In this document: positions 11,480 to 23,527 of the stretch, piece after piece
How the letters are laid out: every line of letters begins with the position of its first letter
How positions within the stretch are numbered: the first letter of the stretch is position 1
Assembly (NCBI GenBank): GCA_003963315.1
Contig: RXJP01000069.1
Span: forward strand, 1-32,866
Direction: 5' to 3'
Source of the DNA: Rhodocyclaceae bacterium
Lineage (GTDB): Bacteria > Pseudomonadota > Gammaproteobacteria > Burkholderiales > Rhodocyclaceae
Length of the DNA stretch: 32,866 bases
Position numbers and translations under genes: made by a program
Notes under the pieces: generated by a model
Databases searched by the model: none
The model's input: only the letters and a program-made list of their open reading frames with translations
Told to the model about the DNA's origin: nothing

Positions 11480-11940
11480 GGGAAGTTCGCCAGGCAATCG
11501 CGGTATCGCTTGTCGGTATCGAGGAAAGTCCGGGCCCCATAGAGCAGGATGCTGGCTAACGGCCAGGCGTTATAAGCGATGGCAACATCGCCCAAGGCGA
11601 CAGAAAGTGCAACAGAAAGATACCGCCGATGGCTTCGCCCGGCTTTGACGCCGTAAGGCGGCAAAGTCCCTCTTTAGTGAGTGGGAGAAGAACAGGTAAG
11701 GGTGAAATGGTGGCGGGTCGCGAGGCCCGGCAGCGCCACGCAAGTGGCGTTGAGGTAAGAGCCCACCGCGTTCCCGGTGACGGTGGACGGCACGGTAAAC
11801 CTCATCCGGGGCAAGGCCAAATAGGGGAGCGACGGCGTGGCTCGTGCTGCTCCCGGGTAGGCTGCTTGAGGTCGTCGGTAACGGCGGTCCCAGAGGAATG
11901 ATTGCCCACGACAGAACCCGGCTTATCGGCGGACTTCCCA
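11480..11940 (+). ncRNA. rnpB: RNase P RNA, bacterial type A, enlarged
   Basis: This is the catalytic RNA that trims tRNA 5' leaders. Ends are set by P1: GGGAAGTTCGCC at 11480-11491 pairs with GGCGGACTTCCC ending near 11939. Universally conserved blocks are present: GAGGAAAGTCCGGGC at 11521, CAGGTAAGGGTGAAA before 11710, GGCAAGGCCAAATAGGGG near 11810-11827, CCGGGTAGGCTGCTTGAG, and ACAGAACCCGGCTTAT at 11911-11926. The span of about 461 bases exceeds the 377 of E. coli. The extra length lies in P9 and P12, where four added hairpins can be drawn, three capped by GNRA tetraloops (GTAA at 11653, GCGA at 11720, GCAA at 11740). The gene lies between DUF3025 and mraZ. Confidence 0.97.
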
Positions 11941-12030
11941 TCCCCCTTTCCTCTCCCCTTATTCGCTGTGAATTGCGACACGGGGCGATTTGTCGCCTAT
12001 TTTCACAAGCTACTTTCAGTTGACCTGCTA

Positions 12031-19591: not shown

Positions 19592-21103
19592 ATGAATCTC
19601 CACGGCAAACGCGTCCTCGTCCTCGGCCTCGGCGAATCCGGCCTGGCCATGGCCCGCTGGTGCGCCCGCAATGGGGCCTGGGTGCGGGTCGCGGACAGCC
19701 GCGCCGAACCGCCCTGCAAGGGCGCGCTGCTGAGCCAGGTGCCCACGGCGGATTTCGTGTGCAGCCATTTCGACGATCGTTTCGACAAGACGCTCCTGGC
19801 AGGTATCGAGCTGGTGGCTTTGTCTCCCGGCCTTTCCGGCGGGCTGATGCCGGTACTCCATGCCCGGGCCGACGGCGTTCCGGTGGTGGGTGAGATTGAA
19901 ATGTTCGCCTGGGCCTTGCGCGATCTGGGCTTGCGTAGCCCCGGCCAGGGCTATGCCCGGGTGTTGGCGATTACCGGCACCAATGGCAAGACCACCACGA
20001 CGGCGCTGACTGCCCATCTCTGCAATGCCGTCGGTCGCCATGCCGTGGCGGCGGGCAATATTTCCCCTTCCGCGCTGGATGCCCTGATGGATGCCCAGGA
20101 CCAGGGCCGCTATCCCGAGGTGTGGGTGCTGGAGTTGTCCAGCTTCCAGTTGGAGACCTTGGAAAGCCTGGATGCCGATGGCGCGGCTGTGCTGAACATC
20201 AGCGACGACCACCTGGATCGTTACGAAGACCTGGACGAATATGCCGGTGCCAAGGCCCGCGTCTTCTTCGGCAACGGGGTGCAGGTGTTGAACCGGGAGG
20301 ATGCCCGGGTCCGCAAGATGACCCTCGATGGCCGCCGCATCATCAGTTTCGGTCTGGATGCACCGGGCAGCACCGACGATTTTGGCCTGCGGCAGAACCA
20401 GGGTGAACCCTGGGTCGTCGAGGGCGACAGTTTTCTTTTGCCGGTCTCGCAACTGCCCATCGCCGGCCTGCACAACGCCGCCAACGCCATGGCCGCCCTG
20501 GCCCTGTGTCGCAGCATCGGCATCGCCCCGGTCAACCTGCTGCCCGGCTTGCGCAGTTTCCAGGGCTTGTCCCACCGGGTGGAGCGGGTCACCGAGATCA
20601 AGGGCGTCACCTATTACGACGACTCCAAGGGAACCAACGTCGGCGCGACGTTAGCTGCCATTACCGGACTCGGCCCCATCCTTTCCGCCCGCAGGGCACA
20701 AACCAGTCACCTCCCTTCCTCGGGAAGGGAGGCCGGGAGGGATGGCGGATTTCTTGGCTCCGCCAAGAATGAGGACGAGCCTCGGCTCGTTCTCATTCTT
20801 GGCGGGGACGGCAAAGGGCAGGACTTTGGCCCCTTGAAATCCGCCGTGGCTGAGCACGCCCGTGCCGTGGTGCTGATCGGCCGGGACGGGCCGCAGATCG
20901 AAGCGGCCATCCACGGCTGCGGCGTTCCCATGGTGACGGCCAAGGACATGGAACAGGCGGTGCGCCTGGCCGCCGCCGCAGCCCTGCCGGGGGACGCCGT
21001 ATTGCTGTCGCCCGCCTGCGCCAGTCTGGATATGTATCGCAACTACGCCCATCGGGCCGAAGCCTTCATCGCCGCGGTGAAAGCCCTGGAGGTGATGTCG
21101 TGA
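19592..21103 (+). CDS. murD: UDP-MurNAc-L-Ala:D-Glu ligase with an in-frame repeat insertion
   Basis: MurD adds D-glutamate to UDP-MurNAc-L-Ala. Visible motifs are VLGLGESGLAMARW at the N-terminus, the P-loop ITGTNGKTTTT with Lys133, VLELSSFQLETL, LNISDDHLDRY, LPIAGLHNAANAMAALAL, SHRVERV, YYDDSKGTNVGAT and LILGGDGKGQDFGPL. The 503 residues exceed the family's usual 440-470. The excess is about 35 residues (roughly 362-398) between the domain-3 helix ending ITGLG and the strand LVLILGGDGK, where family members join almost directly. This stretch is low in hydrophobics and is encoded by palindromic DNA. The frame is intact, catalytic motifs are unaffected, and the insertion falls at a probable surface turn, so the enzyme is likely active (the gene is essential). 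The stop overlaps the ftsW GTG. Confidence 0.95.
   Translation: MNLHGKRVLVLGLGESGLAMARWCARNGAWVRVADSRAEPPCKGALLSQVPTADFVCSHFDDRFDKTLLAGIELVALSPGLSGGLMPVLHARADGVPVVGEIEMFAWALRDLGLRSPGQGYARVLAITGTNGKTTTTALTAHLCNAVGRHAVAAGNISPSALDALMDAQDQGRYPEVWVLELSSFQLETLESLDADGAAVLNISDDHLDRYEDLDEYAGAKARVFFGNGVQVLNREDARVRKMTLDGRRIISFGLDAPGSTDDFGLRQNQGEPWVVEGDSFLLPVSQLPIAGLHNAANAMAALALCRSIGIAPVNLLPGLRSFQGLSHRVERVTEIKGVTYYDDSKGTNVGATLAAITGLGPILSARRAQTSHLPSSGREAGRDGGFLGSAKNEDEPRLVLILGGDGKGQDFGPLKSAVAEHARAVVLIGRDGPQIEAAIHGCGVPMVTAKDMEQAVRLAAAAALPGDAVLLSPACASLDMYRNYAHRAEAFIAAVKALEVMS
20710..20803. repeat. Palindromic insertion within murD
   Basis: Three stem-loops lie back to back. CCTCCCTTCC (20710-20719) pairs perfectly with GGAAGGGAGG (20723-20732). 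TTCTTGGC (20751-20758) pairs with GCCAAGAA (20762-20769). The latter is also the start of a 20-base arm (20762-20781) that pairs with 20784-20803 across a 2-base loop, with one G-U mismatch. The right arm encodes the native MurD strand LVLILGG, so the left arm looks like an inverted copy of host coding DNA. The first stem-loop, followed by CCGGGAGGG, resembles the repeat between murC and murB. Confidence 0.85.
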
Positions 21104-22317
21104 AACTCGCCAATCTGTTCGCGGGCATCAGCGACCGCTTCGCCTCCTCTGCCCCGTCGCGCTTTGCCAGTGGCGCCGGACAGCGCGCACCGGCCGAACT
21201 GGACGCTCTGTTGTTATGGCCGGCCCTGGGCTTGCTGCTGTTCGGCATGGTGATGGTGTATTCGGCTTCCATCGCCATGGCGGAAGGCAGCAAGTTCACC
21301 AACTATTCGCCTTACTTCTTCCTGGTGCGCCACGGCTTCTTCCTGGCCATCGGCTTGGTGGCCGGCGTGATGGCCTTCCAGATCCCCGTCCGCTTCTGGC
21401 AGCAGATCGCCCCGTGGCTGTTCGTCGCCGGGGTGGTGATGCTGGCCGTGGTGCTGATTCCCCATGTGGGCCGCTCGGTGAATGGCGCCCAGCGCTGGAT
21501 TCCCCTGGGCCCGGTGAATCTGCAACCCTCGGAGTTGATGAAATTCTTCGCGGCGCTCTATGCCGCCGACTACACCACCCGCAAGCTGGCCGACATGGAT
21601 TCCTTCCGCCGCGGCTTCGTGCCCATGGCGGTGGTGATGATGCTGGTGGGTGGCCTGTTGCTGCGGGAGCCGGACTTCGGCGCCTTCGTGGTGATCATCA
21701 GCATCGCCATGGGTGTGCTCTTCCTCGGCGGCATCAACGCCCGCCTGTTCGGCATCCTCTTCGTGGTCTTGCTGGCGGCCTTCGCCGTGCTGATCCTGAC
21801 TTCGCCCTATCGCCGCGAACGCCTGTTCGGTTTCATGGATCCCTGGCAGGACGCCTACGGCAAGGGCTACCAGTTGTCCCATGCCCTGATCGCCTTCGGC
21901 CGTGGCGAATGGTTCGGCGTCGGCCTCGGCGCCAGCGTGGAAAAGCTGTTCTACTTGCCCGAGGCCCATACCGACTTCCTGCTGGCGGTGATCGCCGAGG
22001 AGTTGGGGCTGGTGGGCGTCACCTTCGTCATCTTCCTCTTCGCCCTGGTGGTGCAGCGGGCCTTCGCCATCGGCCGTCAGGCCATCGTGCTGGAGCGGGT
22101 GTTCGGCGGGCTCGCCGCCCAGGGCATCGGCATCTGGCTCGGTGTGCAGTCTTTCATCAATATGGGCGTGAACATGGGCCTGCTACCCACCAAAGGCCTC
22201 ACCCTGCCCATGATGAGCTTCGGCGGTTCTGGCATCCTGGCTAACTGCGTGGCGCTGGCAGTGTTGCTGCGGGTCGATTACGAGAATCGCTCGGTGATGC
22301 GCGGGGTGCGAATATGA
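21100..22317 (+). CDS. ftsW: Septal peptidoglycan polymerase FtsW
   Basis: FtsW is the SEDS-family glycosyltransferase that polymerises lipid II at the septum together with FtsI. The 405-residue product has a cytoplasmic N-terminal tail of about 35 residues and then about ten membrane helices. SEDS landmarks are VMVYSASI, GRSVNGAQRWIPLGPVNLQPSELMK, LREPDFGAFVV with the conserved Asp, PEAHTDFLLAVIAEELG, and MGLLPTKGLTLPMMSFGGSG near the end. It starts at GTG, overlapping the murD stop. A 154-base gap with an inverted repeat separates it from murG, in contrast to the tight spacing before it. Confidence 0.97.
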   Translation: MKLANLFAGISDRFASSAPSRFASGAGQRAPAELDALLLWPALGLLLFGMVMVYSASIAMAEGSKFTNYSPYFFLVRHGFFLAIGLVAGVMAFQIPVRFWQQIAPWLFVAGVVMLAVVLIPHVGRSVNGAQRWIPLGPVNLQPSELMKFFAALYAADYTTRKLADMDSFRRGFVPMAVVMMLVGGLLLREPDFGAFVVIISIAMGVLFLGGINARLFGILFVVLLAAFAVLILTSPYRRERLFGFMDPWQDAYGKGYQLSHALIAFGRGEWFGVGLGASVEKLFYLPEAHTDFLLAVIAEELGLVGVTFVIFLFALVVQRAFAIGRQAIVLERVFGGLAAQGIGIWLGVQSFINMGVNMGLLPTKGLTLPMMSFGGSGILANCVALAVLLRVDYENRSVMRGVRI

Positions 22318-22340
22318 AACGGCTAGAGGCAACCGCTTTC

Positions 22341-22452
22341 AACACAGAGGCCACAGAGACACAGAGAACACAGAGGCGAAAACAAAAAAAGCTTTCAGCT
22401 TTCCGCTTTTGCCCTTTCTCTGTGACCTCTGTGTCTCTGTGTTCTCTGTGTC
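22341..22452. repeat. Long imperfect inverted repeat between ftsW and murG
   Basis: The left arm near 22342-22376 is made of CACAGAG units, and the right arm near 22418-22452 of CTCTGTG units. Aligned over about 34 bases they pair with only about four mismatches, separated by roughly 40 bases that include an A-rich run and CTTTCAGCTTTCCGC. No open reading frame or transposase is present, so it is a non-coding repeat of MITE or palindromic type. The murG Shine-Dalgarno AGAGAGG (22454-22460) sits immediately after the right arm. Similar CACAGAG-rich palindromes occur between genes in other bacteria, from memory. Confidence 0.85.
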
Positions 22453-22471
22453 AAGAGAGGTTTCGTTCCTC

Positions 22472-23527
22472 ATGAAGACCATCCTCATCATGGCCGGCGG
22501 TACCGGTGGCCACATCATGCCGGGCCTTGCGGTGGCCGATCATCTACGCAGCCTGGGTTGGCGCGTGGTCTGGATGGGCAATCCCGACGGCATGGAGGCT
22601 CGCTTGGTGCCGGGCCATGGCTTCGAAACCGCCTGGGTGAAGTTTTCCGCCTTGCGCGGCAAGGGCCTGGTGCGCAAGCTGATGTTGCCTTTCAATCTGC
22701 TCAAGGGTTTCTGGCAGGCGCGGCGCGAAATCAAGAAGGTGCGGCCTGATGTGGTGTTGGGCTTCGGCGGTTTCATCACATTTCCCGGCGGCATGATGGC
22801 GGCCCTGTCCGGCATTCCCGTGGTGCTGCATGAGCAGAACTCGGTCGCTGGCCTGGCCAACAAGGTATTGGCCAAATTCGCCACGCGCATCCTCACGGGA
22901 TTTCCCAATGTGTTGAAGGGCGGTGAGTGGGTGGGCAATCCGGTGCGTCAGGAAATCGCCCAATTGCCCACGCCGACACAACGCATGGCCGGCCGCAGCG
23001 GCCCCCTCAACATCCTGGTGGTGGGGGGCAGCCTTGGCGCCCAGGCTTTGAACGAGGCGCTGCCTTTGGCCCTGGCGCAGATGCCCGAAGGCGAAAGACC
23101 CGACGTAGTGCACCAGTCGGGGGAAAAACATATCGAGGGCCTCAAGGCCATTTACGCCCGTGCCGGCGTCAAGGGCCGCCTGGTGCCGTTCATCGAAGAC
23201 ATGGCCGGCGCCTACGCCTGGGCTGATCTGGTGATCTGCCGCGCCGGCGCCTTGACCATCGCCGAATTGTCGGCAGCGGGAGTGGCCAGTGTGTTGGTAC
23301 CGTTCCCCTATGCGGTGGACGACCACCAGACGGGCAACGCCCAGTTCCTTTCCCGGGTGGGCGCAGCGGTGCTGCTACCCCAAACCGAACTCAATCCGGA
23401 TACCTTGACCCTGCTGCGCAATATGAATCGTGGCCAACTGCTGGAAATGGGGGAAAAGGCCCGGGCCTTGGCCAAGCCGGACGCCACTGCCACGGTGGCG
23501 AAGATTTGTGCCGCACTCGCAAAATGA
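22472..23527 (+). CDS. murG: UDP-GlcNAc:lipid I GlcNAc transferase MurG
   Basis: MurG adds GlcNAc to lipid I, forming lipid II on the inner face of the membrane. The 351-residue product from the ATG at 22472 opens MKTILIMAGGTGGHIMPGLAVAD, containing the GGTGGH loop (residues 9-14). Further family motifs are GFGGFITFPGGMMAAL, VLHEQNSVAGLANK, VVGGSLGAQALNEA, DLVICRAGALTIAELSA and VPFPYAVDDHQTGNA. The open frame extends upstream to 22409, but that part is translated repeat DNA, so 22472 is chosen; AGAGAGG stands 11 bases before it. murC follows after 18 bases. Confidence 0.97.
   Translation: MKTILIMAGGTGGHIMPGLAVADHLRSLGWRVVWMGNPDGMEARLVPGHGFETAWVKFSALRGKGLVRKLMLPFNLLKGFWQARREIKKVRPDVVLGFGGFITFPGGMMAALSGIPVVLHEQNSVAGLANKVLAKFATRILTGFPNVLKGGEWVGNPVRQEIAQLPTPTQRMAGRSGPLNILVVGGSLGAQALNEALPLALAQMPEGERPDVVHQSGEKHIEGLKAIYARAGVKGRLVPFIEDMAGAYAWADLVICRAGALTIAELSAAGVASVLVPFPYAVDDHQTGNAQFLSRVGAAVLLPQTELNPDTLTLLRNMNRGQLLEMGEKARALAKPDATATVAKICAALAK

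Follow-up and report, generated by a model that had tools for sequence, protein, structure and literature searches.

Elements of the MITE type, including the intergenic Correia/NEMIS and ERIC sequences, are about 100–150 bp long, carry inverted termini, lie between genes and hold no gene of their own. A target-site duplication is usual for MITEs, although not universal.

Other described systems pair a repeat with a protein. According to the accessible part of PMC8266576, REP palindromes and TnpA-REP (RAYT) form 'REPtrons', in which dispersed, high-copy palindromes, thought to be non-autonomous, are linked to one enzyme gene; enzyme and repeat co-evolve, and the enzyme is a relative of HUH-type transposases. 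The TAACTGA heptamers of Beggiatoaceae, as described in the main text of PMC4679880, are tandem direct repeats located near start codons and patchily spread across phyla, with one inverted set reported and little Shine-Dalgarno character. The intervening sequence of Coxiella 23S rRNA, associated with the S23 protein, is presented in the available part of PMC4990558 as a small selfish sequence of 428 nt with one small ORF. The GxxExxY family is named in passing in the accessible portions of the earlier literature.

The window analysed here (the whole stretch of 32,866 nucleotides) contains an inverted repeat between ftsW and murG. We assign a probability of about 0.68 to the reading that this repeat represents the gene-less, non-autonomous form of a small insertable element that, when complete, carries a GxxExxY gene.

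Architecture of the repeat and its family

The arms of the repeat (Table 1) are 45 nt each, complementary at 37 of 45 positions and 42 nt apart, and both contain four CACAGAG heptamers at spacings of 9, 8 and 9. No other local inverted repeat in the window is as strong: the ftsW–murG repeat scores 22, and 2,000 shuffles reached 11 at most. This confirms the repeat that the initial annotation had placed between the two genes. The CACAGAG make-up proposed there also holds, whereas the proposed arms of about 34 bases, at 22341–22460, were too short. That proposal also included a strong hairpin formed by the operon mRNA, which is borne out by the sequence and by a folding prediction of −69.1 kcal/mol (z = −8.9; none of 200 shuffles equally stable). 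The Shine-Dalgarno-like sequence of murG does lie at the edge of the repeat; rather than starting two bases beyond the right arm, as had been thought, it falls within the arm terminus. In the predicted fold AAGAGAGG is partly paired, so that coupling between folding of the repeat and translation of murG is possible on this model.

Table 1. Features of the ftsW–murG junction (window positions)
Feature	Positions	Strand	Remarks
ftsW (TIGR02614)	21100..22317	+	stop 13 nt 5' of element
Left arm, G-type	22331..22375	+	terminus AACCGCTTTCAA and four CACAGAG heptamers
Left-arm CACAGAG heptamers	22343-22349, 22352-22358, 22360-22366, 22369-22375		
Centre (loop)	22376..22417	.	42 nt, mostly unlike other copies' centres
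Right arm, T-type	22418..22462	-	minus-strand reading AACCTCTCTTG and four CACAGAG heptamers
AAGAGAGG, Shine-Dalgarno-like	22453..22460	+	within right-arm terminus, 11 nt 5' of murG ATG
murG (TIGR01133)	22472..23527	+	ATG at 22472

No Rfam 15 family matches over the repeat at gathering score. The only match in the window is a bacterial RNase P RNA of class A (RF00010, 266.6 bits) at 11482-11941 on the plus strand, upstream of the division cluster.

A genome-wide count of CACAGAG palindromes, which the initial annotation had suggested, found 46 arms in the 3.77-Mb assembly with the pattern AACACAGAGNNCACAGAGACACAGAG at no more than 3 mismatches, and none with the reversed control pattern. Most arms form inverted pairs with a total length of, as a rule, 103–146 bp, and share one layout: a terminus of about 12 bases with AACC[G/T]CTTT, four CACAGAG-like heptamers (spacings 9, 8, 9), then a centre followed by the same parts in mirror image. 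The ftsW–murG repeat is one copy of this dispersed family. The earlier hairpin interpretation is supported in part, having missed the identity of the repeat as a dispersed element with arms common to an element that bears a nuclease-family gene.

The centres are mostly unrelated between copies despite the conserved arms, which is odd for copies of one MITE and counts against reading the family as an element. Some copies do have related centres: three palindromes of the same genome (L040 at about 1475; L011 at about 1415 and about 2555) have in their centres the sequence CCCTGTGGGACAGAG or a close variant of it.

Overlapping double detections (L050, L054) were removed from the 46 detected elements for the target-duplication and terminus-GAGG tests, leaving 44; the arm-likeness, arm-type and direction tests used 42, also without L094 and L098, whose right arms were misregistered. 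Among the 44, target-site duplication at the element ends showed no excess over mismatched pairs and none was found. A comparison of the palindrome with plasmids gave no match.

The gene-bearing form and its direction

Two GxxExxY genes are present in the genome. One (C41) sits in a 473-bp element whose arms belong to the AACACAGAGNNCACAGAGACACAGAG-pattern family and whose termini are closely similar; the second (C131) is enclosed by inverted arrays built from another heptamer, CACCAAG, of which this genome has 16 triples in all. The gene-bearing relative scores 141.5 bits with TIGR04256 (cut-off 35) and 139 with PF13366 (cut-off 22), the latter being PDDEXK_3 of the PD-(D/E)XK nuclease family. 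The catalytic residues of that family, D67, E77 and K79, are invariant in 76 GxxExxY sequences, aligned after four of 80 with stops in the matched stretch were left out. The predicted structure (mean pLDDT 95.7) is most similar to SSO0001, which we take to be a Cas4 protein (Z 9.6, 2.3 Å over 91 residues), a likeness that establishes a common fold but no function. A PDB sequence search with the family profile returned nothing, and Foldseek gave no match at E <= 0.001. Judged by its sequence and modelled PD-(D/E)XK fold, the protein of about 125 residues is presumably a nuclease. Its relatives occur on plasmids in 6 records of 72,556. A viral origin of the element was considered and rejected, as relatives numbered 0 both in viral contigs (two scans) and in phages.

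GxxExxY/PF13366 is a large family, with at least 581 loci in one scan. Flanks were tested at 80 named genome loci drawn from these, less two with short flanks. Inverted flank repeats (score >=12) bracket 53 of the 78 genes; control ORFs at these loci show them in 2 of 227 cases, and shuffled flanks in 2 of 234. A spaced heptamer found de novo occurs in both flanks at 59 of 78 loci compared with 13 of 279 shifted places, or, by a stricter count, at 49 compared with 1; the 19 loci with no heptamer in both flanks count against the element reading. In the relatives, 29 of 30 scored loci have inverted flank repeats. These come from 33 loci, less three on truncated contigs; L149 is unscored and L148 scores 8. 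The weak or broken genes L127, L128 and L129, which lie outside the count of 30, are negative (7, 11 and 7). The commonest units, CACAGAG, CGCAGAG, CGCAAAG, CACGGAG, CACAAAG, CGCGGAG and CACGAAG, account for 54 of 76 loci with canonical arrays.

By record title, loci with flank repeats include members of Pseudomonadota, Planctomycetes, Bacteroidetes, Chloroflexota, Acidobacteria, Verrucomicrobia, Cyanobacteria, Chlamydiales, Hydrogenedentota, Sumerlaeota, Omnitrophota and Geobacter relatives; many of these records are metagenome bins, so single phylum assignments may be wrong.

Genes for four-helix-bundle (TIGR02436, S23-like) proteins are also bracketed by inverted tandem arrays, at 22 of 26 loci (score >=12). 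Their units are of another, G/T-rich kind, for example AGGGGCT and GTGAACG (L230–L255; relatives such as G094, G106, G107 and G117).

The element has a direction. Pair-preserving covariation of the arms was sought, and the opposite was found: likeness is 0.739 within an element and 0.768 between elements. This reversed result led to the recognition of two arm types, and it arises because in 29 of 42 elements the two arms differ in type, one being G-type and the other T-type (permutation mean 18.8, p = 1.5e-4). All gene-bearing copies read (L118/L150, L119, L121, L126, L157, L039) have the G-type arm 5' and the T-type arm 3' of the gene, which implies that the gene-less copies are directed too. 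Read outward, the T-type arm ends in AAAGAGGTT or a variant. Among elements with neighbours classable both ways, this arm points towards the next gene's start in 17 and has the opposite orientation in 3. GAGG is present in 15 of 25 ends no more than 14 nt from a start codon, against 8 of 63 other ends (p = 1.6e-5); in both tests gene directions come from ORFs, not curated genes. These counts lend statistical support, across the family, to the AGAGG terminus as a putative ribosome site. In the window copy, 13 nt separate the ftsW stop from the G-type arm and 9 nt separate the T-type arm from the murG start, and the right-arm terminus seems to be the ribosome site of murG.

These features suggest how the element might work. 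A full element would measure about 475 bp, with the GxxExxY gene between two inverted arms, each made of a terminus of about 12 nt and four tandem heptamers. The nuclease would recognise the heptamers, perhaps as a hairpin or cruciform, and would drive the spread of both gene-bearing and gene-less forms. Copies would persist mainly where, within an operon, they fall after one gene's stop codon and ahead of the following start codon, since their 3' terminus can probably act as a ribosome site for the downstream gene; the junction preference would then result from selection for tolerable sites. At murG, the element would separate the gene from ftsW by a strong hairpin and supply its Shine-Dalgarno sequence. 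It may also change mRNA decay or processing, or the level of MurG, as the initial annotation had proposed.

Distribution among relatives and alternative origins

Four of 121 relatives carry the arm pattern: G000, G010, G016 and, with a single match, G057. G010 and G088 belong to one genus and have 49 arms and 0 arms, respectively. Across a 45-kb division-cluster block, the six palindromes and one GxxExxY element of G010 (7/7) are all missing in G088, where the flanks of the seven copies run on at both sides; six of the seven occupy gaps in G010 that separate one gene's stop codon from the start codon that follows. This difference may reflect loss from G088 instead of gain in G010. An inverted repeat of another kind, with GGGTTTCG-like units (G010:C1:667495-667601, L136), is also missing at the matching site of G088.

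Between ftsW and murG, the palindrome is missing in most relatives read, and in several the two genes abut or overlap (for example L062, L070 and L071). G002 (L061), from another genus, has a CACAAAG/CACCAAG palindrome in the same gap, just upstream of murG, which is apparently an independent insertion. G010 has a palindrome 3' of murG. Together with the G002 copy, this indicates that the operon has been hit by insertions several times.

This distribution bears on another possibility, namely that the host retains the palindromes as functional hairpins in regulation or mRNA processing, acting as RNase III sites, barriers to decay or translational switches, and that GxxExxY genes merely landed in some of them. 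The stable hairpin, the conserved arms around unrelated centres, the operon-junction positions and the Shine-Dalgarno-like terminus would all suit such a role. We nevertheless consider it improbable, because G088 lacks whole units at the corresponding sites, the arm pattern is absent in 117 of 121 relatives, and the occupied junctions differ between genomes. Furthermore, GxxExxY genes of many phyla show the same layout with other heptamers, and compensating changes between arms were not found, but rather the reverse.

Gene and arrays are linked among the relatives. GxxExxY exceeds the cut-off in 22 of 121, and at least 20 CRCNRAG triple arrays are present in 20 of these 22 genomes, compared with 6 of the 99 without the gene (Fisher p = 1.3e-15, with kinship among genomes ignored). 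The six array-rich genomes without the gene count against the element reading. The array pattern is blind to CGCAGAT and CACGAAT units. At times its reversed control also gives nonzero counts (48 and 47 in G065, 8 and 10 in G055). G001 and G018 have the gene, yet show only 4 and 0 arrays; their CGCAGAT-type units escape the pattern.

The heptamer types of gene and palindromes also tend to match. CACCAAG triples number 16 in G000, 44 in G006 and 17 in G081, and at most 4 in each of the other 19 genomes; G000 and G006 have GxxExxY genes with CACCAAG arms, and the CACCAAG arrays of G081 adjoin gene places. CGCAGAG triples peak in G065 (53), and the gene of that genome likewise has CGCAGAG arms; G000, G010 and G083 are rich in CACAGAG triples, and their genes have arms of the CACAGAG kind. 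Two genomes are exceptions: G055 combines CACCAAG-type gene arms with 0 CACCAAG and 44 CACAGAG triples, and G117 has 33 CACAGAG triples while the arms of its best gene are CGCCAAG. Protein distance and heptamer distance correlate weakly (r = 0.16, p = 0.004).

The gene form also recurs at one site, just upstream of trpG, in several genera (G010, G060, G070, L157). In G004/L150 the element precedes a trpG with a broken downstream frame, and the G004 and L150 GxxExxY genes are identical. TIGR00566 exceeds its cut-off for the trpG of G010, and the others were identified by the same N-terminus; the genes 5' of the elements share a C-terminus, and we assume them to be trpE. The loci are L118, L119, L121, L126, L150 and L157; one copy, that of G070 (L126), is frameshifted. 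For the six intact genes that were compared, estimated dN is 0.18–0.34 (identical pair aside) and dS is about 2 or saturated, consistent with purifying selection. This pattern indicates that the gene form can stay long at one place.

Such long residence between trpE and trpG would also fit a different origin, in which an unrelated transposase, or recombination or replication slippage, moved the palindromes and GxxExxY is a passenger or a controller of the repeats, for instance a cruciform cutter. The lack of target duplication, the many copies per gene and the array-rich genomes without GxxExxY point the same way. A passenger, however, would need neither the strong co-occurrence of gene and arrays nor the partial matching of heptamer types, and we hold this account to be unlikely. 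The weakest alternative, that the inverted repeat arose by chance or is an ordinary intrinsic terminator, is suggested by the between-gene position and hairpin shape and is exceedingly improbable, as 22200-22600 contains 0 sites with a G+C-rich stem followed by a T run, and the shuffles and the 46-arm family refute a chance origin.

Comparison with known systems

Beyond this locus, GxxExxY genes could represent a so far undescribed class of selfish elements, very small in size and found in at least 10 bacterial phyla (by record title). In this class, a PD-(D/E)XK nuclease gene would sit between directed inverted heptamer arrays that its product recognises, with dozens of gene-less copies per genome, movement without target duplication and a 3'-terminal ribosome site that fits operons; the four-helix-bundle (S23-like) genes would form a second, parallel class. 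We advance this wider proposal tentatively, placing it somewhat short of even odds. No description of GxxExxY heptamer elements was found in the literature searched, most subscription papers and bioRxiv preprints being outside its reach. GxxExxY/PF13366 is a family without a known role, and the recurrent inverted heptamer arrays provide it with a testable substrate. A ribosome site in the terminus would, in turn, explain how insertions are tolerated in essential operons for division and cell wall synthesis.

The resemblance to MITEs lies in the short, gene-less, many-copy form with inverted termini, and in the presence, within one genome, of a gene-bearing relative that has the same ends (C41, 473 bp). 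In contrast to MITEs, there is no target duplication, the centres are mostly unrelated, and no DDE transposase is seen in the gene-bearing form.

Like the TAACTGA repeats, the arrays are tandem heptamers near start codons with a patchy phyletic spread. They differ in unit and in being inverted, and neither GxxExxY nor CACAGAG appears in the main text of PMC4679880. The Coxiella intervening sequence, as far as its accessible description goes, is likewise small with one ORF, and the TIGR02436 genes found here are also bracketed by inverted arrays; the present elements differ from it in protein family, in units and in occupying operon junctions instead of rRNA.

REP/RAYT, in its accessible description, shares with our locus the dispersed, high-copy palindromes linked to one enzyme gene. 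Whereas that enzyme is of the HUH, Y1 type, the gene between the repeats here is PF13366 PDDEXK_3, and the arms, of about 45 nt, consist of four tandem heptamers in a total of about 120 bp, with genome-specific units. Enzyme-plus-palindrome systems are thus already known from REP/RAYT, and the heptamer arrays with GxxExxY suggest another kind beside it.
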